Under the pieces are notes generated by a model. That model was not told the DNA's origin, searched no databases, and saw only the letters and a program-made list of their open reading frames with translations. The position numbers were made by a program, and so were the translations under genes. From Tunturibacter psychrotolerans (GTDB lineage: Bacteria > Acidobacteriota > Terriglobia > Terriglobales > Acidobacteriaceae), in contig NZ_CP132942.1 of NCBI RefSeq assembly GCF_040359615.1, positions 5,270,001-5,334,000 on the forward strand: a DNA stretch of 64,000 nucleotides, given 5' to 3'. Every line of letters begins with the position of its first letter. Within the stretch, counting starts at the first letter, position 1. Of this stretch, positions 9,144-61,048 are shown piece after piece.

Positions 9144-9498
9144 ACCCTTCAGCGAACGCGCACTCGAGGCATTATCGTTTCGTGGTGGGGATGGGCCGGC
9201 CGCCTCGCTGGAGACGTGTCAGAGCCGCGCCTATGGTGCCGGTGGCGAATCGGGTGGTCATCAGTGCGAAGGTGGAGGGCTCTGAAACTGTGGAGTTGTC
9301 GAGAGGTGGTTCCCTTCTCGAATTCAAATGTGATCAGGGTGCGCCAGGTGTTAGTGGGGATTAGGACATCTCTGAGGGATAGAAGCCCTCTCTGTAACCG
9401 GGAATAAACAAACGGTAGGGGTGTTTCTATCTTAACGAGCGCAAAGACGGCACATACAAGTTCGTCGCGCCGCAAATCATTTGGATTGAGGTACTACT
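9144..9498. other. Intergenic; possible ECF-type box
   Basis: About 355 nt. ORFs on both strands lack support. Near 9395 the sequence CGGGAATA occurs, and the same octamer stands upstream of the ECF sigma gene at about 10378. It may be part of a shared promoter, at low confidence. Otherwise nothing recognised. Confidence 0.3.
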
Positions 9499-10290
9499 TT
9501 GACTCCCTATCTGAGTTCAGAAATGGTCGTCGGACGTTTCGGAGTATCTGACGATCATTTTCCGCCACTAGATTCTCGAGGAGAGGAATCTCAGGATTCT
9601 TCACAGTCTACAATATATGAGATATCATGTCTCTTAACCGGCTTCTCCGGCCAGACCTGCCCGGTATCTCCGGTCTCGTTGTTGGCTGCTGAGAGATCCA
9701 TCTGTAGATTGCGCCTGGATCTGATCGAGATGCTCCGCCTCTCGTTACACGCCGTTGACTATGCTACGAAAGGCTATGCTTTGGGCCTCGTTGAATTTGC
9801 ATTGCAATCTTCCAGTGGAAGAAAGAAGCTGGAGTACCTTGGTCAGACGATCATCGCGGCGAGCCACGAGTTGTGCGAAGGAGAACTCGACGATTCACAG
9901 CTGGACTTTGTCGAATCCGCGCGGACAATCTCTGCGGCCCTGTCATCCACATGTCAGCAGGCAAATGAGATTTCTTCGCATACCGTCGCGCTCCTACGCG
10001 GAGGTATACGTCGAAACTCGCGAGAGTTAGCACAGTTGGGTGAGCGCGCAAACCGCCTGTTGCGACTCTGCATTGTGGCATTTATGAAACAGAAGGTTGA
10101 GTACGCCGAGGCCGTTTTGCGCGACATTGACGAGTGGAAACACGGTATTCAGGAAAAACTTTCCGGACCGAACTCCGGCGCGTCGGGGACAAGAGACGCG
10201 CGCGAATGGGCGATCGCGGAAAGCTTGACGCAAATCATGGAGAATCTGCGCCTTATATCGGTAGCGTCCTTATTACCGTATCGCTCTTAG
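9499..10290 (+). CDS. Uncharacterised all-helical protein, weakly PhoU-like
   Basis: A 263-residue protein I do not recognise with certainty. After a polar N-terminal 60 residues it is almost entirely amphipathic helix (from SLLAAERSICRLRLDLIEMLRL to DIDEWKHGIQ). The periodicity and the ELAQLGERANRLLRLCIVAFM segment resemble PhoU-type three-helix bundles. No signal peptide or membrane segment is visible. TTG 9499 is the start, with GAGG 8 nt upstream. The gene precedes the ECF sigma operon in the same direction with a gap of 130 nt and shares a CGGGAATA box upstream, so co-regulation is possible. Confidence 0.55.
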   Translation: MTPYLSSEMVVGRFGVSDDHFPPLDSRGEESQDSSQSTIYEISCLLTGFSGQTCPVSPVSLLAAERSICRLRLDLIEMLRLSLHAVDYATKGYALGLVEFALQSSSGRKKLEYLGQTIIAASHELCEGELDDSQLDFVESARTISAALSSTCQQANEISSHTVALLRGGIRRNSRELAQLGERANRLLRLCIVAFMKQKVEYAEAVLRDIDEWKHGIQEKLSGPNSGASGTRDAREWAIAESLTQIMENLRLISVASLLPYRS

Positions 10291-10420
10291 AATGTTGGCT
10301 TTTTGGCTTTTGCGGCACCGGAGACGAGGAGCGCTCCACACAGGGTGGTCCTGTGTGTGCCCGAGAATTCATTTTTTCGGGAATATTCTCTCAAGTCCGG
10401 TTTTGTAGAGGTAGTGAAAT

Positions 10421-10984
10421 ATGTCTTTGACCCCCGAGGGCTCACCTGTTGTAGAGGCTGCTGCTGGTATCGAACATATCGATGGGCTGTTCAGCTATGC
10501 GCTTGTACTCACTCGTAATCGGAGTGAGGCAGAGGACCTGGTGCAAGAGACTTATGTTCGCGCCATACGGGCGATAGGAAGTCTGCGCACTGGCAGCAAC
10601 GTAAAGGGCTGGTTATTTACCATCTTGCGGAACATTTGGTTCAATCAGTTACGGCAAAGGCGCGCCGCAAAAGTTGTTGCAATGGATGGAGAGGAGAGCG
10701 CTACGGATATTGCAGGGACTGCAAAAGATCCTTATGCGTTCTACGTAAGTAAGATGGAGCATGAGCAAGTGCGCGAAGCAATTCAACGACTGCCAGCGGA
10801 TTTTCGCGAGGTCATCCTGTTGCGCGAGTTCGAGGAGCTTTCCTATCAAGAGATTGCAACGATTTTGGACTGTCCAGCAGGAACGGTAATGTCGCGCCTC
10901 GCAAGGGCGCGCACTAAGCTGCGGAAGTTGCTTTCGACTGCCTTTAAGACCTCCGATTTCGCCAAGAAGGAGGTCATGGAATGA
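10421..10984 (+). CDS. ECF-type RNA polymerase sigma factor
   Basis: A 187-residue extracytoplasmic-function sigma factor. Region 2 contains LFSYALVLTRNRSEAEDLVQETYVRAI and VKGWLFTILRNIWFNQLRQRR. Region 4 contains LPADFREVILLREFEELSYQEIATILDCPAGTVMSRLARARTKLR, with the helix-turn-helix at about residues 140-165. The start ATG has a weak AGAGGTAG site upstream. The gene overlaps the following anti-sigma gene by 4 nt (ATGA), the standard arrangement for a sigma/anti-sigma pair. It probably autoregulates. Confidence 0.93.
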   Translation: MSLTPEGSPVVEAAAGIEHIDGLFSYALVLTRNRSEAEDLVQETYVRAIRAIGSLRTGSNVKGWLFTILRNIWFNQLRQRRAAKVVAMDGEESATDIAGTAKDPYAFYVSKMEHEQVREAIQRLPADFREVILLREFEELSYQEIATILDCPAGTVMSRLARARTKLRKLLSTAFKTSDFAKKEVME

Positions 10985-51412: not shown

Positions 51413-52756
51413 ATGGTGCCACTGGATGATGTTCAGGGCTTGATCCTGCGGAGCTATGGCATGGATTGCGCCGCATTCTTGTTGCTGCGCGTGCAGGAGC
51501 CAGCGGGTGCACGTCGAACCCTCGGGAGTCTTTCTGTAACCGCGGGTACACTCTGGCAGGAGAAGCCCGCTTTCTGCGTGAACGTCGCCCTCACTATTCA
51601 GGGCCTCGCAGCGCTGAACGTTTCGCCAGCTTCTCTCAACTCTTTTCCCCAAGACTTCGCAGCGGGCGCCTTCAGCCGTTGTGCGGAGGTCGGTGACATC
51701 GGACCCTGCTCTGCTGAGAACTGGAACTACGGACTCGGTCAACCTGGACTGCACGCGCTCGTTCTCCTCTTCGCTCAAAGCCCTGACGTCCGTGACGCCC
51801 AGACGGCCCTGCTTCGACAAACCCTGATCTCAGGTGGTGCGTGGTCGGAGGTCGCAACGCTTCCTGGCGATGTCCTCCCAGGAAGTGTTGCCCACTTCGG
51901 GTATCGAGACGGCTTTTCCCAGCCGACGGTCGATTGCGGCATCGAGAATCCATTTCCCGACAAGCAGCCTGTTGCGCCGGCAGGTGAGTTCCTCCTCGGC
52001 TACCCCAGCCAGTTTGACCAGTTCAGCTATCCAGTTCCCCTACCGGACGAACTGGGCCGCAACGGAAGCTTCATGGTGCTGCGAATATTGGAGCAGGATT
52101 GCGCCGCCTTCGACGCACTGCTGAACCAATCGAAGGAGCGTTACGGCATAGATGGAGAACTTCTGGCGGCAAAGATCATGGGTCGCTGGCGCAACGGAAC
52201 GCCGCTGAGTATTTCGCCCAGCTCCGATTCGCCGGTCCCGCCATTGGCAACCTCGGACTTGAATCGATACGATTATGTCCCGTCGGATGCCGTTCCCGAT
52301 GCCTTCAATGATCGCCGAGGCTTGCGCTGTCCAATCGGCGCTCACATGCGCCGCGCCAATCCGCGGGGGTCAACGATTGCCGGAGATGGCGGTTCGCGGC
52401 ATCGCATCGTCCGCCGCGGTATTCCCTACGGCTCGCCTTACGATCCATCGAATCCGAACGATGGCATCAAGCGCGGACTTCTCGGCCTCTTTATTGGGGT
52501 GAGCATTAAAGACCAGTTTGAGTTCCTTATGTCCGAATGGATGAACGGAAGCACCTTTGCTCCCGGCATCTACGGCACGACTGATCCAATTCTGGGAAAC
52601 TCTGCCGAGGGGGAAAACACATTTGTCATTCCTCGTGACAATTCCACGCCCCTCGTCATCTCGCATTTCCCTCGCCTTGTCACCACTCGCGGCTCCGCCT
52701 ACACTTTCCTGCCCAGCATTACTGGCCTGCGTTTCATCGCGAATCTTCCATCATGA
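51413..52756 (+). CDS. DyP-type heme peroxidase
   Basis: A 447-residue dye-decolorizing peroxidase that uses H2O2 to oxidise aromatic substrates. Signatures: the distal GxxDG motif in FGYRDGFSQP (D166), the proximal heme His H311 in CPIGAHMRRANPR, and the distal Arg region HRIVRRGIPYG. The length fits the long class of DyPs. There is no signal peptide or C-terminal encapsulin targeting tail that I can recognise. It starts 4 nt after the 145-residue protein. Cargo loading by that small protein, or electron transfer, is possible but unsupported. Confidence 0.93.
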   Translation: MVPLDDVQGLILRSYGMDCAAFLLLRVQEPAGARRTLGSLSVTAGTLWQEKPAFCVNVALTIQGLAALNVSPASLNSFPQDFAAGAFSRCAEVGDIGPCSAENWNYGLGQPGLHALVLLFAQSPDVRDAQTALLRQTLISGGAWSEVATLPGDVLPGSVAHFGYRDGFSQPTVDCGIENPFPDKQPVAPAGEFLLGYPSQFDQFSYPVPLPDELGRNGSFMVLRILEQDCAAFDALLNQSKERYGIDGELLAAKIMGRWRNGTPLSISPSSDSPVPPLATSDLNRYDYVPSDAVPDAFNDRRGLRCPIGAHMRRANPRGSTIAGDGGSRHRIVRRGIPYGSPYDPSNPNDGIKRGLLGLFIGVSIKDQFEFLMSEWMNGSTFAPGIYGTTDPILGNSAEGENTFVIPRDNSTPLVISHFPRLVTTRGSAYTFLPSITGLRFIANLPS

Positions 52757-52985
52757 AGACTGCCAGGACATACGAAGAACCATTTCTGCACAGACGCCGG
52801 CGACGTCAGAACGCATATGCTCGCCAGCGATGTTGGATTTCTCGGCCCTACCATACCGAACCAGCAGCAGAGTACACAGATCAGAGTCAGATCTGAAGCA
52901 TTTAGCCCTTTCATGCACATCATTGTTGCGATACGCCAGCCGACTCCGATTGTCAGAATGCCAGACGATCGCTGCGTTCGCTGAC

Positions 52986-53008
52986 CGTCAGTGTCGGATA
53001 TCGGTCGC
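52986..53008 (+). promoter_or_regulatory. Upstream activator site C for the sigma-54 regulon
   Basis: 23-bp site CGTCAGTGTCGGATATCGG + TCGC. It shares 20/23 bases with site A (55568-55590, minus) and 18/23 with site B (58573-58595, minus). It ends 108 nt before the -24 GG of the promoter at 53116 and reads toward that gene. It is a candidate enhancer for the activator at 58925. It lies in the 52757-53143 gap, which holds no gene. Confidence 0.75.
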
Positions 53009-53115
53009 AATTTTGTCACACCAAAGCTTGACTTCCGCCATCGACCCGTGCCATAACTCACTCGGGAAGAGCCGCTTAGACCATGAGTTCGTACTCAAAC
53101 CAACGCCAACCTCTG

Positions 53116-53131
53116 TGGCACGCCGGTTGCA
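53116..53131 (+). promoter_or_regulatory. Sigma-54 (-24/-12) promoter of the RclA-like flavoprotein gene
   Basis: TGGCACGCCGGTTGCA fits the consensus TGGCAC-N5-TTGCA exactly, with GG at 53117-53118, GC at 53129-53130 and the required 10 nt between. The implied transcript start is near 53141, only about 3 nt before ATG 53144, so the mRNA may be nearly leaderless or translation starts further in. Confidence 0.8.
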
Positions 53132-53143
53132 CAGCTTCGTGAC

Positions 53144-54594
53144 ATGGACTTACGTGAAAACAAGGATTTTCCGTCAAACAGCGCAACGCACGGTCTCGCT
53201 TTGGATGAATATGACCTTGTCATTCTGGGCGACGGGACCGGAGCGACGCTCGCCGCATGGACATTCGCGGGTCAAGGACAGCGCGTTGCGGTAATAGAGC
53301 GAAAGTACATAGGTGGCTCTTGCCCGAACATTGCCTGTCTCCCCAGCAAGAACATTGTTCAGAGTGCGAGGGTTGCGTCCTACTTGCGTAGAGGGAAAGA
53401 GTTCGGCTCCATGACGGATACCTTCCACATCGACATGCCGGCGGTGCGGGACCGGAAGCGCGCGATGGTGTCGGGATTAAATGATATGTATCTCGAGAAC
53501 TTCAGGCAGACTGGGGCCGAGTTCATTCTTGGATCAGGACGCTTTATGGGACCGAAAGCTCTGGAGGTAACGCTTGAAGACGGGACTACTCGCCGACTCC
53601 GCGGGACCAATGTGATTGTTAGCACGGGCACGCGGGCTGCTTCGAAACCAATTCCGGGACTATCTGATGCACAACCACTGACACACATCGAGGCACTCGA
53701 ACTGGATGTGGTCCCACGGCACCTCATCGTGCTGGGCGCAGGCTTTGTTGGACTGGAACTGTCGCAGGCGATGAGCCGGTTCGGTAGCAAGGTTACGGCA
53801 TTGATCGAAATGACCGCTTGCTCCACCTGGAAGATGATGATGTGACCAGTGGTCTTGCCAGTTTGTTCACGCACGAAGGCATTGAGACAGTTCTGAATGC
53901 AAAAGTGAAGCATATCTCTGGTAGATCCGGCACTGCGGTGACGGTTGTTGTCGACCAAGGGGGAAGAGAAAAGACTCTCGTGGGCACCCACCTGCTTGTG
54001 GCGGCAGGGCGACGTCCAAACACAGAAAATATAGGACTCGAGTTGGCAGGGGTCGAGTTGGATGAGCGCGGTTACGTCAAGGTGAACGGACGGCTTGAGA
54101 CGACCGCGCCAGGCGTCTGGGCTATCGGCGAGGTTGCCGGAACCCCTAAGTTCACACATGTCAGTGTTGACGACTTCCGCGTCGTCCGCGACAATCTTGC
54201 AGGCGGCAATCACGTTACAACATGTCGACTAATCCCCTACACCCTTTTCACAGATCCCGAACTCGCGCGAATCGGTCTGACGGAGAAGGAAGCCAAAGGG
54301 CAAAACATAGCCTATCGCTTGTTCAAAATCCCAATGGAGCGAGTGCTGCGAGCCCACACTCTCTCCGAGACACGCGGATTTTTTAAAGCGTTGGTAGGGC
54401 TCGACAATGATCTCATTCTTGGCTTCACCGCGTTCGCTGTTGATGGCGGCGAGATTATGGCGTCGGTCCAGACTGCGATGATAGCCGGCCTCCCTTACAC
54501 CGCACTCCGCGATGCCATCTGGGCCCACCCAACGCTTGTCGAGGGACTGACTCCCTTGTTCTCGTCTGCTCCATCCCTATCGACAGCCTCATAA
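53144..54594 (+). pseudogene. Pyridine nucleotide-disulfide oxidoreductase (mercuric reductase/RclA-like), frameshifted
   Basis: An FAD/NAD(P) flavoprotein of about 480 residues split over two frames. Frame 1 (to stop 53845) has YDLVILGDGTGATLAAW, the redox-active disulfide C60-x4-C65 in GGSCPNIACLPSKN, and the second Rossmann motif VLGAGFVGLELSQ. Frame 2, after about 53812, continues LLHLEDDDVTSGLASLF, AAGRRPNTENIGL, the FAD-binding WAIGEVAGTPKFTH and the interface domain ending GLPYTALRDAIWAHPTLVEGL. The shift falls inside one conserved strand-turn (VTALIE / RNDRLLH), so a single small indel breaks a normal gene. SVDDFRVVRDNL resembles E. coli RclA. Driven by a sigma-54 promoter; convergent with the DUF417 gene. 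Confidence 0.8.
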
Positions 54595-54858
54595 GGTGCA
54601 GGGACGGTCGTCATCAGAACCTATATGCCGTCCATATCTTTGCGTCCGTTCAGAAGCTATTAGGCTTTGCAGCTCTCTATGGATTTAGGGGGGAGCGACC
54701 CAGCCGAGTCCGATCTGTTGAATTCACCATGGCCTAATCAGTTTTATTCGAGCGGACGATTCCATCTCTTCAGTTTGGCTCACCTTCGCTGGGATAAAAG
54801 CACTGGTGCTCCGAAATGCGGGCCGGACTTTTTGCCAAGGTCGCGTCTGCTTTGATGA

Positions 54859-55386
54859 TCAGTTTTTGTTTTCTGCCAGAATGGCTTTTCTCCCGAAATA
54901 GCTGATTAGATAAAGAGACGCTCCAAGAGATATGACATCTTTGAAGAGAAACAAGCCCAAGAAGCTCATATACTTCATTCCGTGAACCACAGTTATCGTG
55001 CCCGGTGTTGTGATGATCATTGTGCTGGTCGTAAAGAACATCAGCGTCGCGACGAAGCCGCCTACGATACCTGCTTTAGGCTTTATATAGCCAGTCACAA
55101 ACAATATCGCGGCAAGCCACTCGGTAAGACCGATCAAATCGGAACCGAGATATGGCCCGAATAATTTGAAGTGCCAGCTGATCAGCGGACTATTAGAAAC
55201 CAGGGGAACTATGCCATCCGCTCCTGGAGCAGTCATTTTATAAGTTCCGGCCCAGAAGAGCATGACGATCAAGCCGATGCTGATGACCAGGAAAGGAATA
55301 TTACGATCATCTATCCATGTAGCCAATTCAGTTAGTTTGTTCTTTGGTTGCCCATGAGAAACCACGCTCTGTTCCAGTGTGTTCAT
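54859..55386 (-). CDS. DUF417 (YkgB/RclC-like) membrane protein
   Basis: A 175-residue inner-membrane protein with four helices. The family blocks are LIVMLFWAGTYKMTAPGADGIVPLVSNSPLISW and VGGFVATLMFFTTSTMIITTPGT, as in E. coli RclC/YkgB of the reactive-chlorine resistance operon. It is convergent with the RclA-like flavoprotein gene (265 nt between stops), and both have their own sigma-54 promoter with the same upstream site. Known: in E. coli rclABC, RclA is a cupric/flavin reductase and RclC a membrane protein of unknown biochemistry. Inferred: a similar protective role here. Confidence 0.88.
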   Translation of the reverse strand: MNTLEQSVVSHGQPKNKLTELATWIDDRNIPFLVISIGLIVMLFWAGTYKMTAPGADGIVPLVSNSPLISWHFKLFGPYLGSDLIGLTEWLAAILFVTGYIKPKAGIVGGFVATLMFFTTSTMIITTPGTITVVHGMKYMSFLGLFLFKDVISLGASLYLISYFGRKAILAENKN

Positions 55387-55444
55387 CTTTTGTATCCTTC
55401 CGTCGCTTTCGTAAATTCGTACGTGACGTAATCAGTTGCTAAGT

Positions 55445-55461
55445 TGCAATCAAGACGCCAA
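55445..55461 (-). promoter_or_regulatory. Sigma-54 promoter of the DUF417 gene
   Basis: Read on the minus strand: TTGGCGTCTTGATTGCA, with GG at 55459-55458 and GC at 55447-55446 (10 nt between). It matches TTGGCAC-N5-TTGCA except in two bases. The implied start is near 55434, giving a leader of about 48 nt. Confidence 0.8.
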
Positions 55462-55567
55462 CCACTGCCGGCCCTTCCTGTGTGGCAGGTGGTCGAGCTA
55501 AATAGGTTCTGCTCTGCAGAATCGATAGGAAATTTCGCTACATCGTCAGTCTCCGGCAGATGAAGTT

Positions 55568-55590
55568 GCGATGGATGTCCGACACTGACG
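55568..55590 (-). promoter_or_regulatory. Upstream activator site A for the sigma-54 regulon
   Basis: Minus strand CGTCAGTGTCGGACATCC + ATCGC, 20/23 identical to site C. It ends 108 nt before the -24 GG at 55459 and points toward the DUF417 gene. The surrounding gap 55387-55752 holds no supported gene; the 71-codon ORF 55538-55753 is rejected because it crosses this site and lacks any family character. Confidence 0.75.
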
Positions 55591-55752
55591 AATGTTTGTC
55601 ACACGGTGCGTCACAGTGCGAGGCCAGTACGGCACTCACGACGACCTTTGCATGTGGTGATAGCCTGCGCGCTCTTAGAGTTGCCGCATCCTCCATATAA
55701 AGGCCGGCAAAGTATTTGGGTTTAGCGAGTCGAAGACTTTGACCTTCCTGCA

Positions 55753-56526
55753 CTAGATGCCTTTGGTTTCACCACCGTCCATGCGTACGGAGGTGCCTGT
55801 CATCCACTTGGCTGGTGACACCATGTAGGCCATCAAGTCAGCGATTTCTTCTGGTGTTCCATAGCGAGCTATGCCCGCCTTTTCAGGAAACTGCTTCGTG
55901 GCCTCTTCAACGCTCATGCCGTGCTCCGGAGCCCAGTGTTCCATGAAGGAGCGGCGACGACCTGTCATGACTGCGCCCGGAACTACGCTGTTGACTTGAA
56001 CTCCATCTTTAATGCCTTGTTCTGCGAAGGCCTTCGCCAGCGCAATGATGGCGGCGTTGATGGTCGCTACGGCTGCGAAACCTGGCTTCGGATCCAGGGC
56101 CGCGCTTCCAGAGATTAAAACGACGGAGCCGCTCGAGGCTTTGAGTGCATCCCAGGCTTGTACAGTGAGGCGGCGTGCACCGTGAAGCTTGAGTGCCATG
56201 CCGTCGTCCCACTGTGCATCCGTCATCTCGAACAGATCAATCTGCGGTACCGCACCGGCGATGTTAACCAGGGCGTCGATTCTGCCAAAGCGATCGAGGA
56301 CGCCTTTGACGATGACCTCAGCCGCCTGGGGCTCGCGCAGATCGAGCGCGTAGATCAGTGACTCCGCATCGACCGAGTTGACGGCGGATGCAGTTTTCTC
56401 CAATTCGTCCTTATTCCTGGCTACGAGTATGACTGCGGAGAAGTCGCGCGCCAGCCGGATTGCGGTTGCCCGACCGATCCCCTGGCTCGCACCGGTGACA
56501 ATGGCGACAGATTTCATAACGGTCAT
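55753..56526 (-). CDS. SDR-family oxidoreductase lacking the canonical Y-x3-K
   Basis: A 257-residue short-chain dehydrogenase/reductase. The cofactor site is intact (IVTGASQGIGRATAI, LVNIAGAV, SVVLISGSAA). The active-site helix, however, reads GFAAVATINAAIIALAKAFAEQG where Y-x3-K is expected, so Tyr and Lys appear replaced (by V and N). The end has MTGTSVRMDGG. The family reduces or oxidises carbonyl groups; this one may have altered or no redox chemistry. AAGGG stands 8 nt before the ATG. It is the last gene of the sigma-54-driven hydrolase-hydrolase-SDR operon, 56 nt after the Tat hydrolase. Confidence 0.85.
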   Translation of the reverse strand: MTVMKSVAIVTGASQGIGRATAIRLARDFSAVILVARNKDELEKTASAVNSVDAESLIYALDLREPQAAEVIVKGVLDRFGRIDALVNIAGAVPQIDLFEMTDAQWDDGMALKLHGARRLTVQAWDALKASSGSVVLISGSAALDPKPGFAAVATINAAIIALAKAFAEQGIKDGVQVNSVVPGAVMTGRRRSFMEHWAPEHGMSVEEATKQFPEKAGIARYGTPEEIADLMAYMVSPAKWMTGTSVRMDGGETKGI

Positions 56527-56581
56527 ATGATTGCCCTTTCGATCTGCTTAGATCCGGGGTGAAACTCGTTACGGTGAAACG

Positions 56582-57418
56582 CTATCGTGAGAGGGTTTGA
56601 CGCGCGGCTTCAAGGACCACGCCGATAACGACTTGCGGGTCTGAATACATAGGCGTGTGGTCCACACGATGCGACCGAATCGTTGCGCCCATACGATCCG
56701 CCATGAAGCGCTGGGTTTTCGGGGGGATCATGCGATCCTCCTCCGCGATCAAAAACCACGACGGTTTTGATTTCCACAGCGGCACTGGCGCCTGCTCTTG
56801 AATGCACTGAACCCCAAGTGGCCGTTGCACAGCCGCTGCAATTTTTGCTTGGTCTGCAGAGGCCTTATGCGCAACCGCCCGGCGAAATCCATCGTCCGGC
56901 ATCCATATAAGACCATGGGAATCGGGAGACATCTTCGGCGCTTCGGGAGAATTTGGGTTGAGATAGAACACCTTGGCTACGGTTTCGCCCTCATCCGGCG
57001 CGAGCGCCGAGATATAGACCAGAGACTTGACTCGGTCTTCCCGTACAGCGGCGATCACTGCTCCAGAATAGGCATGCCCCACCAGAATGACCGGGCCGCT
57101 CGTCCGTTCCAGCACCTGACTCAAAGCGGTAGCGTCGTTGGTTAGGGACGTGAGCGGAATCGGCGCACAGATGACTTGAAGACCACGCTGTTCCAAAGGC
57201 AGAATGATGTTGCTCCAACACGAACCGTCGGCCCACGCAGCATGCACCAAAATTATCGTTGAGTTCCGAGGAAATTCACTCACCGCGGAAGCCTGCGCCT
57301 GCGAACTCGCAGCGGCTTGTGTCGTGTTTTGTGCTTGCACAACTTCGCTGAAAGAGCCCTTGAGCAAAACCCCCAGAGATGTGGCTGTGAGAGCACCTAA
57401 AAAGCTACGACGTTCCAT
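56582..57418 (-). CDS. Exported alpha/beta hydrolase with Ala at the nucleophile position
   Basis: A 278-residue protein with a Tat-like signal (MERRSFLGALTATSLGVLLK, cleavage after VVQAQ). The hydrolase fold shows NSTIILVHAAWADGSCW, the elbow ILVGHAYSGAVIAAV, and late WFLIAEEDRMIPPKTQRFMADRMG and HRVDHTPMYSDP with the catalytic His. In related esterases the elbow is GHSYGG; here it is GHAYSG, so the usual serine nucleophile is Ala. ATG 57418 is 6 nt after AGGAGG; ATG 57421 is an alternative. Its start lies 17 nt from the upstream hydrolase stop, so it is in that operon. Confidence 0.85.
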   Translation of the reverse strand: MERRSFLGALTATSLGVLLKGSFSEVVQAQNTTQAAASSQAQASAVSEFPRNSTIILVHAAWADGSCWSNIILPLEQRGLQVICAPIPLTSLTNDATALSQVLERTSGPVILVGHAYSGAVIAAVREDRVKSLVYISALAPDEGETVAKVFYLNPNSPEAPKMSPDSHGLIWMPDDGFRRAVAHKASADQAKIAAAVQRPLGVQCIQEQAPVPLWKSKPSWFLIAEEDRMIPPKTQRFMADRMGATIRSHRVDHTPMYSDPQVVIGVVLEAARQTLSR

Positions 57419-57434
57419 CATTTTCCTCCTGGTT

Positions 57435-58346
57435 TTATTTACTTGTTCGGCCAGACACGCCGGCATCCTGGAGAAACTCCTTCATGGAGAAAGCTATATC
57501 TACCACGTGAGTCTCTATGGCGAAGTGACCGGTATCCAGGAACTGGACCTTCGCATTTGGCAGATCATTACGGAACGCCTCAGCTCCTGCCGGAATGAAG
57601 AATGGGTCGTTCTGACCCCAGATCGCCAGCAAAGGCGGCTTCGATTTGCGGAAATAGTCCTGAAACCGCGGGTAAAGCTTCACGTTCGATGCGTAGTCCA
57701 GGAACAAGTCGAGCTGGATCTCTTTGTTTCCCGGTCGTTCGAGCAACGCGGCATCCAAGGTGTACGACTCAGGCGTCACGCTTTCCGGATTCGCTACTCC
57801 GTGCGTGTACTGCCAACGAGTTCCTTGGAAGTTCAGGATGTTTTGACGGATCACGTCCCTGTTTTCTTTGGTCGGCTCAGACCAGTATTTTCTGATGGGT
57901 GCCCACGCGTCGCCGAGGCCTTCTTCATAGGCATTGCCATTCTGTGAGACGATCGCAGTGATCCGTTCGGGGCGGCTCATCGCCAGACGGAAGCCTGTGG
58001 GAGCACCGTAATCAAACACGTATATCGCGTAGCGCTCTAAACCGAGAGCATCTGTGAACGCCTCCAATGCGCGTGCCAGCGCGTCGAACGAGTAGGCATA
58101 GGCTCGTGTCTCAGGCACTCTCGTGAATCCGAAACCGGGCAGGTCCGGTGCGATCACTCGGAACTGGTCTGAGAGGCGTGGAATAAGCTCGCGAAACATG
58201 AAGGACGACGTCGGAAATCCGTGCAGCAGGAGCACAACCGGTGCATTTGGGTCGCCGGCTGTCCGATAGAAAACTTCAATTCCATCTGCTTCAATGGTAT
58301 GAACGGATGTCACCGGTATCGCGAACTTAGCAAGGACAGTACACAT
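57435..58346 (-). CDS. Alpha/beta hydrolase, haloalkane-dehalogenase/epoxide-hydrolase type
   Basis: A 303-residue cytoplasmic hydrolase. The oxyanion loop is LLLHGFPTSSFMFRELIPRL. The elbow YVFDYGAPTGFRLA carries an Asp nucleophile as in dehalogenases and epoxide hydrolases. An acid in IWGQNDPFFIPAGAEAF and the catalytic His in FLDTGHFAIETH complete the triad. The cap domain is also present. ATG 58346 follows GAGG by 4 nt and fits the sigma-54 transcript start near 58440; the frame is open up to 58427. It is the first gene of the operon. Substrates may be halogenated or epoxide compounds, which would suit a reactive-electrophile response; this is inference. Confidence 0.9.
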   Translation of the reverse strand: MCTVLAKFAIPVTSVHTIEADGIEVFYRTAGDPNAPVVLLLHGFPTSSFMFRELIPRLSDQFRVIAPDLPGFGFTRVPETRAYAYSFDALARALEAFTDALGLERYAIYVFDYGAPTGFRLAMSRPERITAIVSQNGNAYEEGLGDAWAPIRKYWSEPTKENRDVIRQNILNFQGTRWQYTHGVANPESVTPESYTLDAALLERPGNKEIQLDLFLDYASNVKLYPRFQDYFRKSKPPLLAIWGQNDPFFIPAGAEAFRNDLPNAKVQFLDTGHFAIETHVVDIAFSMKEFLQDAGVSGRTSK

Positions 58347-58450
58347 AAAGCCTCTTCTCTCTCTGGTCTGGTTGATCGTGGACGAGTCTCTGTCGGTCTC
58401 CGCTTTGATTGGGGTTCTCTGGAACAACCGAGTGCCCGCAGATGTGTTAA

Positions 58451-58467
58451 TGCAGGCGTAAGGCCAA
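58451..58467 (-). promoter_or_regulatory. Sigma-54 promoter of the hydrolase-hydrolase-SDR operon
   Basis: Minus strand TTGGCCTTACGCCTGCA: GG at 58465-58464, GC at 58453-58452, 10 nt between. It matches TTGGCAC-N5-TTGCA less well than the other two but with the correct geometry. The implied start near 58440 leaves a leader of about 94 nt to ATG 58346. Confidence 0.7.
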
Positions 58468-58572
58468 ACCTAGAACTCACGATCCACGTCGGGGCACGCA
58501 GCTAAATCCCTAAGCTCCTGCAGGATAGGTAAGGGGAACGCGAAAAGATATCTGTCGCTCGCTGACCAAGAC

Positions 58573-58595
58573 GTGACGAATATCCAACAGTGACG
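58573..58595 (-). promoter_or_regulatory. Upstream activator site B for the sigma-54 regulon
   Basis: Minus strand CGTCACTGTTGGATATTC + GTCAC. It matches site C at 18/23 and ends 107 nt before the -24 GG at 58465. It lies between the operon and the end of the activator gene. The rest of the 58347-58924 gap holds no supported gene. Confidence 0.7.
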
Positions 58596-58924
58596 AAAGT
58601 TAGTCGCGAGATTTATCGCGCCAGCAGCACGGGTCGTAACGATCACGGCGCGATCTGCGCTCGAGGAGTTTGCTGTGCAGGGTGAATGTTCAACTTCACC
58701 AGAGGACGATCAGCGACCGCAATCCCCCCAGAGAACCTGCCTCCGAACTGAGTGGTGGCGTCAAGAGCATGCGTACCAGGCACACTGGATCTTTGGCTTT
58801 CGAGCATGCTTGGAGGGCTCTTGGCTGATGGCGTCTTTAGCGCTCAAGAGGATTCGGCACAACCAGATTGATGGCACCGATGTCTTCAGACCTGACGAAC
58901 CGAACTCTCGACGGCGTTCTCTCA

Positions 58925-61048
58925 TTAGGAAGAAACGGGACGCACGATACGATGCTTCCGCATCTTGTAAACAAGAGAGGTGCGCTTCATCCCCAACCGC
59001 TCGGCCGCTCCGTTTCTGCCGCCTACGACCCAATCGCTGGCCTCGAGCGCACAGAGGATGTGATCTCGCTCTACTTCTTCAAGACCTGTCATGGGCGTGT
59101 TCGATTGCCTTGCGGCGGTGAAAGGCTCAAGTTCGGACGTGGGTGCTCGCAAAATAGTGTGAGGAGAAAGGATGACGGCGCGCTCGATAAAGTTCTGCAA
59201 TTCGCGGACGTTTCCCGGCCAGCTATATCGCACGAGCGCATCCATCGTCTCCGCAGGGATCGTGTCGATCCTCTTGTTCATGCGTCGTGCGTACAGGTCT
59301 GTGAAGTGCAAGACCAGTTTCGGGATATCTTTTGTACGTTGCCGCAAGGTGGGGACATGGATCGGGAATACTTTTAGCCGATAGTAGAGGTCCTCACGGA
59401 ACGTCGCCTGCTTTACCATCACGGTCAAATCCCGATGGGTCGCCGCAACAAGCCGGACGTCAACCTTGTGAGTCCGGTTGCTCCCGAGCCTTTCAAACTC
59501 CTGCTCTTGCAGGACTCGGAGCAGTTTTGCTTGCAGTTCCAGAGGAATGTCGCCGACTTCATCCAAAAAGAGTGTTCCCTTGTGAGCGAGTTCGAAGCGC
59601 CCCGTCTTCTGTGCAACGGCCCCGGTAAATGCCCCTTTCTCGTGACCGAACAGCTCACTCTCAAGGAGCCCAAGCGGAATTGCAGCGCAGTTCAACTTAA
59701 CAAACGCACGATCCCGGCGGCTGCTCAGATTGTGAATAGCCCGGGCAATCAGTTCCTTGCCGGTACCCGTCTCGCCCTGAATTAACACGCTCGAATCTGT
59801 CGGCGCCACAACGGCCACCAGATGTAGAGCGCTCTTCAAGGCGGGGCTCTCACCGACGATTGACCCAAACTCGGCCCGGATCTCTTCTTCTAGATACAGC
59901 CTCTGTTTAGCTTCTTTGTCTCGATCCTTTGTCGCCTTTTCGTACTCCAACGTGTTCTCAACTGCAATCGCTATCTGACAGGCCACCTGCTCAAGTAAGA
60001 CGACGTCGTCTTGCTCAAAAGGATGGTTCGAACGTCTAGAGAGCATTAGAACGCCAACTACGCGATCACGGCTTAAAAGCGGAAGATAACACCCCACGCT
60101 GAGGGCTTCCTCAATTACGTGCTTGTAAAGAAGCTGGCCGTTAGGATTCCCATAAATTTCAGGATCCCCGCAGACCTGTTCGAAGCTATCGATCCGGATG
60201 CTCTTGCCCTCACGTAATACCTGACCTGAGATCGAACCATTCATCGGGACCAGGGATCCCTCGCGGAAAGGCCCTCTCGCGTCTGGGTTGTACAAGTTGT
60301 TGACGCGTAACTCGCCGCTTTCGGAATCGGGTAGCAACAAGGCGGACACGTCACATTGCATTGTCTTGAATAGATTCGTCGAAAGCGCCTCAACCACTTG
60401 CCGGAGGTCCAGCCTGGATGTCACGCTGCTTGTGATTTCCAGAAGCAATCGCAGACGATCGCGTTCATACCGTAACTTTTCTTCATTCAAGTGACGCTCA
60501 ATCGCAATTCCGGCGATATGACTGGCGCTCTCGATCAAGTGCAGATCGGCGGCGTCAGGGCTCCGCGGTTCACGATAATGAATGGCGAACGTCCCAAGGA
60601 CTTGACCTTCGTTCGTAAACAACGGCTTCGACCACACTGCTCGGATTCCAAAAGGTAAGAGCCGATGACGATAATGATCCCAGACCGGATCAGTGAGAAC
60701 GTCGTTTACATAGACCGGCGCCTTGCGATAGACGGCTGTGCCACAGGATCCACCCCTTGGACCGATCGCCATCGATCCTGCGCCAGAGATGAACCCTGGG
60801 AGACCGGGTGCCGCTGCACAATAGAGTTGCTTTCCGTCCTCGTGGGGAAGCCAGATGGTGCACAACGTCCCATCGCCCGAAGATTCAACTAGTTGGGCAA
60901 TAATTGTAAGCACCTCAGCCAAAGGAGCTCCAGTGAGGATTAGCCGCAGAGTATTGAGCACCGATTCGGAGGAAAGCAAACCTGACGCGGTATGCGCGTC
61001 TTCGGTGCTCAAGTTCAGCTTCGAGCAAGATTGTGTTAAAGACTCCAT
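58925..61048 (-). CDS. Sigma-54-dependent activator (GAF-GAF-AAA+-Fis HTH, FhlA-like)
   Basis: A 707-residue enhancer-binding protein. Two GAF sensor domains (about residues 30-190 and 195-375) are followed by a helical linker and the AAA+ domain, with Walker A GETGTGKEL, the sigma-54-contact loop EKGAFTGAVAQ, Walker B GTLFLDEVGD and the R-finger region FREDLYYRL. A Fis-type HTH ends the protein (ILCALEASDWVVGGRNGAAERLGMKRTSLVYKMRKH). Without a receiver domain, it should be switched by ligand or redox signals to the GAF domains, as in FhlA. It is located upstream of and on the same strand as the hydrolase operon. Three matched sites and sigma-54 promoters nearby define its probable regulon. 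Confidence 0.93.
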   Translation of the reverse strand: MESLTQSCSKLNLSTEDAHTASGLLSSESVLNTLRLILTGAPLAEVLTIIAQLVESSGDGTLCTIWLPHEDGKQLYCAAAPGLPGFISGAGSMAIGPRGGSCGTAVYRKAPVYVNDVLTDPVWDHYRHRLLPFGIRAVWSKPLFTNEGQVLGTFAIHYREPRSPDAADLHLIESASHIAGIAIERHLNEEKLRYERDRLRLLLEITSSVTSRLDLRQVVEALSTNLFKTMQCDVSALLLPDSESGELRVNNLYNPDARGPFREGSLVPMNGSISGQVLREGKSIRIDSFEQVCGDPEIYGNPNGQLLYKHVIEEALSVGCYLPLLSRDRVVGVLMLSRRSNHPFEQDDVVLLEQVACQIAIAVENTLEYEKATKDRDKEAKQRLYLEEEIRAEFGSIVGESPALKSALHLVAVVAPTDSSVLIQGETGTGKELIARAIHNLSSRRDRAFVKLNCAAIPLGLLESELFGHEKGAFTGAVAQKTGRFELAHKGTLFLDEVGDIPLELQAKLLRVLQEQEFERLGSNRTHKVDVRLVAATHRDLTVMVKQATFREDLYYRLKVFPIHVPTLRQRTKDIPKLVLHFTDLYARRMNKRIDTIPAETMDALVRYSWPGNVRELQNFIERAVILSPHTILRAPTSELEPFTAARQSNTPMTGLEEVERDHILCALEASDWVVGGRNGAAERLGMKRTSLVYKMRKHRIVRPVSS

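Follow-up and report, generated by a model that had tools for sequence, protein, structure and literature searches.

A 64,000-nt window of the Tunturibacter psychrotolerans genome (GCF_040359615.1, NZ_CP132942.1, positions 5,270,001-5,334,000; genome size 5.64 Mb), by which we mean the whole stretch of DNA that was analysed, carries a real and conserved sigma-54 regulon with its own enhancer; the kind of circuit is known and its content is new. A 707-aa activator with the domain order GAF-GAF-AAA+-Fis very probably binds elements of about 57 bp and drives three sigma-54 units in this genome, namely a gene for an RclA-like flavoprotein, a gene for an RclC-like membrane protein, and an operon of two alpha/beta hydrolases and a short-chain dehydrogenase/reductase (HYD1-HYD2-SDR). 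Comparative genomics establishes the site, its coupling to a -24/-12 promoter, two classes of spacing and the co-occurrence of site and activator; physical binding, looping and activation are what we infer from these sequences. In the proposed mechanism, the activator would occupy the element as several Fis-type dimers and would loop, over about 115 nt, to the -24/-12 promoter where RNA polymerase is bound with sigma-54 (for some targets in relatives, over a distance shorter by one helical turn); the bound activator would then switch on the three units.

An earlier note on this DNA had described three -24/-12 promoters with GG and GC 10 nt apart, each preceded in the same orientation by a 23-bp site at gaps of 108, 108 and 107 nt. 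Promoters and sites are present as described: each of the three promoters reads GG-N10-GC, and the 16-mers of all three sites fit the degenerate pattern CGTCA(G/C)TGT(C/T)GGA(T/C)AT with 0 mismatches. The gaps also hold within the window (115, 115 and 114 nt from the end of the 16-mer to the GG, equal to 108, 108 and 107 nt from the end of the 23-bp site), while across relatives the spacing is not one fixed value, and the 23-bp sequence, although real, is part of a wider conserved element. At up to 3 mismatches the window contains five matches, the three sites and two others with 3 mismatches; genome-wide, just two further places come within 1 mismatch of the 16-mer, and neither has a -24/-12 sequence scoring at least 9 in the next 260 nt. 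A whole-genome search with a 40-bp profile, in which 150 of 2559 first-look candidates were scored, returns the three window sites as the sole strong matches (E values of 3.7e-8, 1.2e-6 and 9.8e-6), so that the strong part of the regulon lies within about 6 kb; the next matches are two of the same three places on the opposite strand (E 0.04 and 0.35), followed by one at E 1.13. The discriminating criteria for a site are accordingly 0-1 mismatch to the 16-mer or the 40-bp profile, since at 3 mismatches the 16-mer is uninformative (198 places genome-wide vs 165 for the reversed control). An assessment of the promoters in isolation was dropped because equal-scoring -24/-12-like places are common: the window holds 72 GG-N10-GC places scoring at least 9 of 13, and the hydrolase promoter scores merely 9 of 13. 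It is the fixed position of the promoters behind the sites, not the promoters themselves, that is far from chance. A separate scan for sigma-70 promoters found 6 where 4.2 were expected.

The architecture of the element is evident from a 40-column matrix built from 18 seed sites of the window and orthologous loci, later followed by a 25-site profile. Compared with itself, the matrix fits best as the reverse complement about column 16 (columns 1-31) and after a shift of 17, which points to two GAC-N8-GTC dyads 17 bp apart with the middle CCGTCA-G-TGnCGG; the site consensus is GACnnnnnnnCCGTCAGTGnCGGnnATCCGTC. Conservation continues outside the model, where columns 39-42 read GTCA and a less conserved GCGAC lies upstream, and then falls to background; columns 40-42, counted from 0, are 85-92% conserved in 52 sites of held-out genomes. 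The full element, about 57 bp long, is made of the two dyads plus outer half-sites, and the 16-mer is its middle, i.e. the right half of one dyad and the left half of the next. In the window, the outer half-sites are not perfect: site 1 (RclA-like gene) is without the left GAC and site 2 (RclC-like gene) without the right GTCA. As a control, the matrix gave no match of at least 20 in 84 other loci (1.29 Mb), this negative side alone being informative because the 48 positive loci are positive by definition; 20 column-permuted matrices gave 1 match in total. In the spacers of 76 sites, two T residues at about -41/-40 relative to the -24 GG are partly conserved and follow A-rich sequence; beyond this weak A/T tract, no conserved site for a bending protein was found in the spacer.

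The earlier note had proposed a scan of relatives for the motif with a -24/-12 promoter downstream, and had named a lack of conserved sites or spacing beside orthologous genes as grounds for giving up the regulon. In our scan the pair of motif and promoter recurs, sites co-occur with the activator, and sites, spacing and targets recur in several families of the class. With a promoter defined as a -24/-12 score of at least 9 at 95-125 nt behind the site, we obtained 86 distinct sites scoring at least 20 in the loci, 26 with training sequence and 60 new; a promoter follows 55 of the 60 new sites, vs 2.0% of random positions in the same loci. The 17 genomes without any training site have a promoter at 47 of 52 sites, at offsets of 103-106 or 113-119 nt and none at 107-111. 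Measured from the end of the 16-mer, the spacing falls into two classes of about 101-106 and 112-122 nt. The roughly 11 bp between the groups is about one helical turn, a difference that would fit an activator obliged to meet the polymerase on a fixed face of the DNA; where sites recur before different genes, their promoter phase is unchanged. A site is present in 15 of the 16 loci with an activator match of at least 60% (L031-L041, L043, L044, L050 and L057). Seven non-seed sites (in L031, L033, L035, L038 and L050, plus additional sites in L032 and L040) are followed by a -24/-12 at 113-117 nt, whose promoter score is just 8 in two cases, and in later loci of the class a promoter by the rule follows 5 of 7 main sites, one of the five being a training site.

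An association of the site with the activator gene is evident from the survey of the family, in which the thresholds were E<=1e-200 for the activator and E<=1e-3 for a strong site. The activator was found in 26 of 398 genomes, a strong site in 25 and both in 23 (Fisher p 6e-32); for 299 genomes of the class, the numbers are 15, 15 and 13. At E<=0.1 the profile matches 96 family genomes, those beyond E<=1e-3 being weak. The mismatches largely resolve. Among the family genomes with the activator alone (G142, G183 and G217), G142 and G183 have weaker sites with a promoter at 114 and 116 nt; G307, which together with G168 has the site alone, retains (at locus L209) two C-terminal activator pieces, one cut by the contig start and one a 358-aa open frame without GAF domains. 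The mismatches of the class are G496, with activator fragments at contig ends, G590, with a weaker site and a promoter at 114 nt, G613, taken up below, and G168 again. Sites also occur far from the activator gene, which argues for action in trans: about 634 kb away on the single contig of G119, 88 kb away in G141 (with two more on other large contigs), and on other large contigs in G384, G236 and G040; the drafts G118, G160, G280, G546 and G552 have sites on other contigs, which is no proof of distance per se.

Several observations weigh against the regulon as proposed, or against the strength of its statistics. The Fisher value overstates independence, since about ten training genomes of the 25-site profile are among those searched, activator-adjacent sites share the inheritance of the activator, and the strong-site limit of 1e-3 was chosen after the list had been seen (the stricter filters scored 16 candidates per genome); the distant sites answer part of the caveat of shared inheritance. 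Five of the 60 new sites, in G217, G345, G202, G215 and G236, are without a promoter by the rule, as are the main sites of the later class loci L305 and L308. G217 has a weak site without a promoter, G168 a weak profile match without the activator (best matrix score of the locus 7.8), and G613 the activator with no site of at least 14 within 12 kb. No site was found in the sequence searched of L107, a Nitrospirae metagenome-assembled genome with a 65% activator match over the C-terminal half, nor in that of L042, L046 and L054, where the activator match is 54-57%. Finally, G072 (L267) has a HYD1-ADH-HYD2-SDR-RclC set (ADH, alcohol dehydrogenase) with site and promoter, and as closest activator homolog (81% identity across 330 aa) it has, elsewhere in the genome, an open frame of 391 aa that carries no GAF domains (the next homolog is at 53%); GAF sensing is therefore not universal.

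It is very unlikely that a different enhancer-binding protein binds the sites while the neighbouring activator regulates something else. The 26 positive genomes each offer 19-56 first-look sigma-54 activator candidates, but the presence of the site tracks that of the present ortholog across the 398 and 299 genomes, even where the sites are distant, and both G072 and G307, where the search yielded no full-length copy, still keep a homolog with the same AAA+-HTH (helix-turn-helix) part. Least credible of all, and contradicted by the data, is that the sites are inherited relics or functionless repeats conserved through the relatedness of the loci. Many sites do share one syntenic position behind the activator gene; against this, the 40-bp cores of the window are 93, 88 and 82% identical to those of L211, the locus of a relative (genome G210) whose activator is 79% identical and which has the equal three-site layout plus a histidine kinase gene, while the spacers are 67, 61 and 68% identical (93% for the core vs 67% for the spacer at UAS 3), near the 58% of random gapped alignments. 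Identity is 57-66% in the 100 nt upstream and 71-80% in the 45 nt after the promoter, conservation drops to background just outside the element, and the sites recur before different genes in the same promoter phase. Nor are the three sites of the window a duplicated block, as the regions outside them are unalike (ungapped spacer identity 26-31%). The parts of the circuit are listed in Table 1.

Table 1. Parts of the sigma-54 circuit, in positions of the window (UAS, upstream activating sequence)
Feature	Position	Strand	Basis or detail
UAS 1	52962..53019; 16-mer 52986-53001; 40-bp core 52976-53015	+	pattern and profile match
-24/-12 promoter of RclA-like gene, GTGGCACGCCGGTTGCA	53115..53131	+	top-scoring -24/-12 of the window
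RclA-like FAD disulfide reductase, CPNIAC redox pair	53144..54594	+	broken frame, halves 53144-53845 and 53818-54594
RclC-like membrane protein (DUF417)	54859..55386	-	Pfam
-24/-12 promoter of RclC-like gene, TTGGCGTCTTGATTGCA	55445..55461	-	GG-N10-GC
UAS 2	55557..55614; 16-mer 55590-55575; core 55561-55600	-	pattern and profile match
SDR oxidoreductase, gene 3 of hydrolase operon	55753..56526	-	Pfam
HYD2, second alpha/beta hydrolase, GHAYSG at nucleophile elbow, RRSFLGA twin-arginine-like leader	56582..57466	-	
HYD1, alpha/beta hydrolase of haloalkane dehalogenase/epoxide hydrolase type, Asp nucleophile (FDYGAP)	57435..58427	-	
-24/-12 promoter of hydrolase operon, TTGGCCTTACGCCTGCA	58451..58467	-	GG-N10-GC
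UAS 3	58562..58619; 16-mer 58595-58580; 40-bp core 58566-58605	-	pattern and profile match
Activator, 707 aa, GAF-GAF-AAA+-Fis	58925..61048	-	Pfam

The activator gene lies upstream of HYD1-HYD2-SDR on the same strand, the RclC-like gene is next, also on that strand, and the RclA-like gene faces it. The open reading frame (ORF) of HYD1 opens at 58427, with the likely ATG, judged by eye, at 58346. Just upstream of the RclA-like unit, a 447-aa ORF at 51413-52756 shows a weak similarity to DyP peroxidases (25.9 bits vs a cut-off of 27.5); a search of two upstream ORFs against phage families gave no match.

Sigma-54 activators form rings on enhancers, contact sigma-54 via the GAFTGA loop and use ATP to open the promoter. 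The window protein has two GAF domains (residues 42-184 and about 204-370), an AAA+ sigma-54 interaction domain at 397-564 (PF00158, 247 bits vs a cut-off of 20.2) and a C-terminal Fis-type HTH at 656-699 (PF02954, 35.7 bits vs a cut-off of 22), all by Pfam; its GAFTGA columns, G472-A477, are invariant in 30 orthologs, and the genome contains rpoN (PF04552, 198.1 bits). In an alignment of 30 distinct orthologs, Cys63, Cys77 and Cys102 of GAF1 are invariant; Cys320 of GAF2 is common to 6 of 7 paralogs, which were trimmed to the matching stretch and so are without the positions of Cys63 and Cys77. The search for relatives of GAF1 in the PDB returned a single insignificant match (E 0.068) and no ligand clue.

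Targets were taken as same-strand ORFs in a run of short gaps behind a site, and each cluster was named after one or a few members that were scanned, single-occurrence clusters being mostly unclassified. By number of the 34 genomes or loci, the leading clusters are HYD1 (28, a count that includes a distant further hydrolase), HYD2 (22), SDR (18) and EgtB-like (13), followed by RclC-like (11), RclA-like (10), DM13 (10) and MOSC-reductase (6); aquaporin and TMEM175 (5 each), glyoxalase, DUF427 and aldolase (4 each) and histidine kinase (3) are minor. A cluster named as an ECF sigma factor from one scanned member lies behind sites in six genomes (L187, L194, L196, L201, L205 and L210), which suggests a possible cascade from sigma-54 to ECF. 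No ORF was called behind 5 of the 86 sites, the broken RclA-like unit of the window included.

Motifs were counted over entries, a gene behind two sites counting twice. The Asp nucleophile motif FDYG is present in 36 of the 42 HYD1 entries longer than 200 aa and was not found in 6, and among 294 PDB relatives of HYD1 the 60 best are each a haloalkane dehalogenase or a construct with one in it, presumably so for constructs named otherwise. GHAY, in which Ala takes the usual place of Ser, is present in 24 of the 31 HYD2 entries (not found in 7), and alignments place this Ala where related alpha/beta hydrolases have the nucleophile Ser; the 233-aa form of L211 is without the twin-arginine-like leader of the window form. 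CPNIAC is found in 14 of 15 RclA-like entries. The earlier note's RclA-like flavoprotein does stand as a predicted target, with site, promoter and gene in place, but not as an intact gene in this genome: the frame breaks near 53800, with site and promoter intact, which may reflect an assembly error or decay. L211 has an intact copy of 483 aa (9308-10759, -), and the window's own genome an intact 53% paralog. The RclA-like ATG follows the -24 GG by 27 nt (53117-53144), at about +2/+3 of the predicted start and at equal distance in L211 and L198, not in L180; this position may indicate a leaderless mRNA or a later start codon.

The likeliest purpose of the circuit, at somewhat less than even odds, is inducible protection from reactive oxidants or electrophiles, for which the cysteine-bearing GAF1 would be the candidate sensor. 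The invariant GAF1 cysteines, combined with EgtB-like, RclA/RclC-like and glyoxalase targets, make oxidant or electrophile sensing our best guess for the signal; MOSC-reductase proteins among the targets lend further support, as does an EgtB-like protein of L210, the one member scanned, that scores above the family cut-off (TIGR03440, 528.9 bits vs 360), EgtB having been found in relatives and not in the units of the window. The RclC-like protein matches DUF417 well (Pfam, 79.6 bits vs a cut-off of 27). Weighing against this role, the same protein reaches 60.3 bits with the NCBIfam RclC equivalog model, whose cut-off is 275, and the RclA equivalog cut-off of 740 is missed both by the intact L211 ortholog (337.5) and by the two window halves (88.9 and 225.3). 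HYD1, moreover, was rejected as a marker of the regulon, because close homologs occur without a site: HYD1 matches were found in 54 of 200 genomes, and no site was found in 16 loci of activator-less genomes nor at 3 further copies in the window's own genome.

The chief alternative leaves the circuit intact and makes it metabolic, with a regulator that senses an organic substrate, with hydrolases, SDR and redox proteins that degrade it, and with the rcl-like genes as accessories. We regard this as a fair possibility, although the less likely one. Substrate sensing is common among the GAF activators that control aromatic or acetoin catabolism, HYD1 belongs to the haloalkane dehalogenase/epoxide hydrolase type and has a conserved Asp nucleophile, and genes for a Zn-alcohol dehydrogenase, a luciferase-like monooxygenase with flavin reductase, an isochorismatase and a lactonase-like protein lie near or behind sites in single relatives. 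On the other side, it is the redox and protective targets that recur (EgtB-like, RclC, RclA and DM13, at the counts given above), and, the five aquaporins aside, the scanned clusters include one small-molecule transporter, of the MFS type, behind sites of 2 genomes.

Beyond the role, these results provide a predicted binding site and a target list for a regulator family that databases call formate hydrogenlyase activators, and offer a sigma-54 circuit in Acidobacteriota. All source names shown within the 120 best of 5323 activator homologs read 'formate hydrogenlyase transcriptional activator', in one case alongside a second name; the present evidence contradicts this naming. What stands of the label 'FhlA-like' in the earlier note is the domain order GAF-GAF-AAA+-Fis and the nearest named family, FhlA being the closest NCBIfam model at 509.4 bits and its annotated form in two Klebsiella records 38-39% identical to the activator over 96-97%; the model score is below the equivalog cut-off of 830. 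The site type differs as well, since FhlA-type sites, as described in the available part of the source, pair TGT with an inverted ACA at a distance of 10-12 bp (TGT-N10-12-ACA; PMC6615313), and here we find GAC-N8-GTC dyads. No formate hydrogenlyase genes were found among the target clusters classified behind the 86 sites, single-occurrence clusters being mostly unclassified. With the NorR model the activator scores 359.3 bits, below the equivalog cut-off of 476. The sigma-54 regulons of Clostridiales follow the same logic, with one orthologous activator group, one UAS motif and -24/-12 promoters, but concern another phylum with different activator groups; such motifs as the available part of that study quotes differ from ours, its 39 motifs not having been individually compared (PMC6615313). 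Among the open-licence literature matches listed, no title or abstract start describes the present regulon or such a sigma-54 circuit in Acidobacteriota, and 'acidobacteri' has 0 occurrences in the available part of the main text of PMC12316311.

The closest parallel in content is the reactive chlorine/hypothiocyanous acid response of E. coli, controlled by RclR, a member of the AraC family. There, according to the available part of the source, rclABC is induced via RclR by hypothiocyanous acid (HOSCN; PMC12096828). The two systems share RclA-like and RclC-like (DUF417) proteins among their targets and differ in the controller, RclR there and a sigma-54 activator here, where the circuit also adds HYD1-HYD2-SDR and, in relatives, EgtB-like proteins. 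No AraC-type RclR was found among 10 neighbouring ORFs scanned beside the window genes. Similar gene sets without the present site do occur beside AraC proteins: plasmid pACPOL4 of Acidisarcina polymorpha (L215) has RclA-like (53-56%), RclC-like (28%) and HYD1 (63%) proteins beside one whose best NCBIfam model is RclR (71.7 bits vs a cut-off of 400), and a Pseudomonas plasmid (L213) has RclC-like and HYD1 genes beside another whose best model is RclR, below the cut-off. Given these gene sets and the control by RclR in E. coli, a change of controller for a comparable defence set is the most interesting reading. Tentatively, Acidobacteria might have placed an rcl-type defence (RclA-like, RclC-like, ergothioneine synthase and dehalogenase-like hydrolase) under sigma-54 and not under an AraC-type RclR, with GAF1 as a direct cysteine sensor (Cys63, Cys77 and Cys102) and a multi-dyad enhancer read in two helical registers. 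If the defence role is true, it would link sigma-54 to protection against oxidants or electrophiles, and the circuit would be a counterpart of the RclR system.

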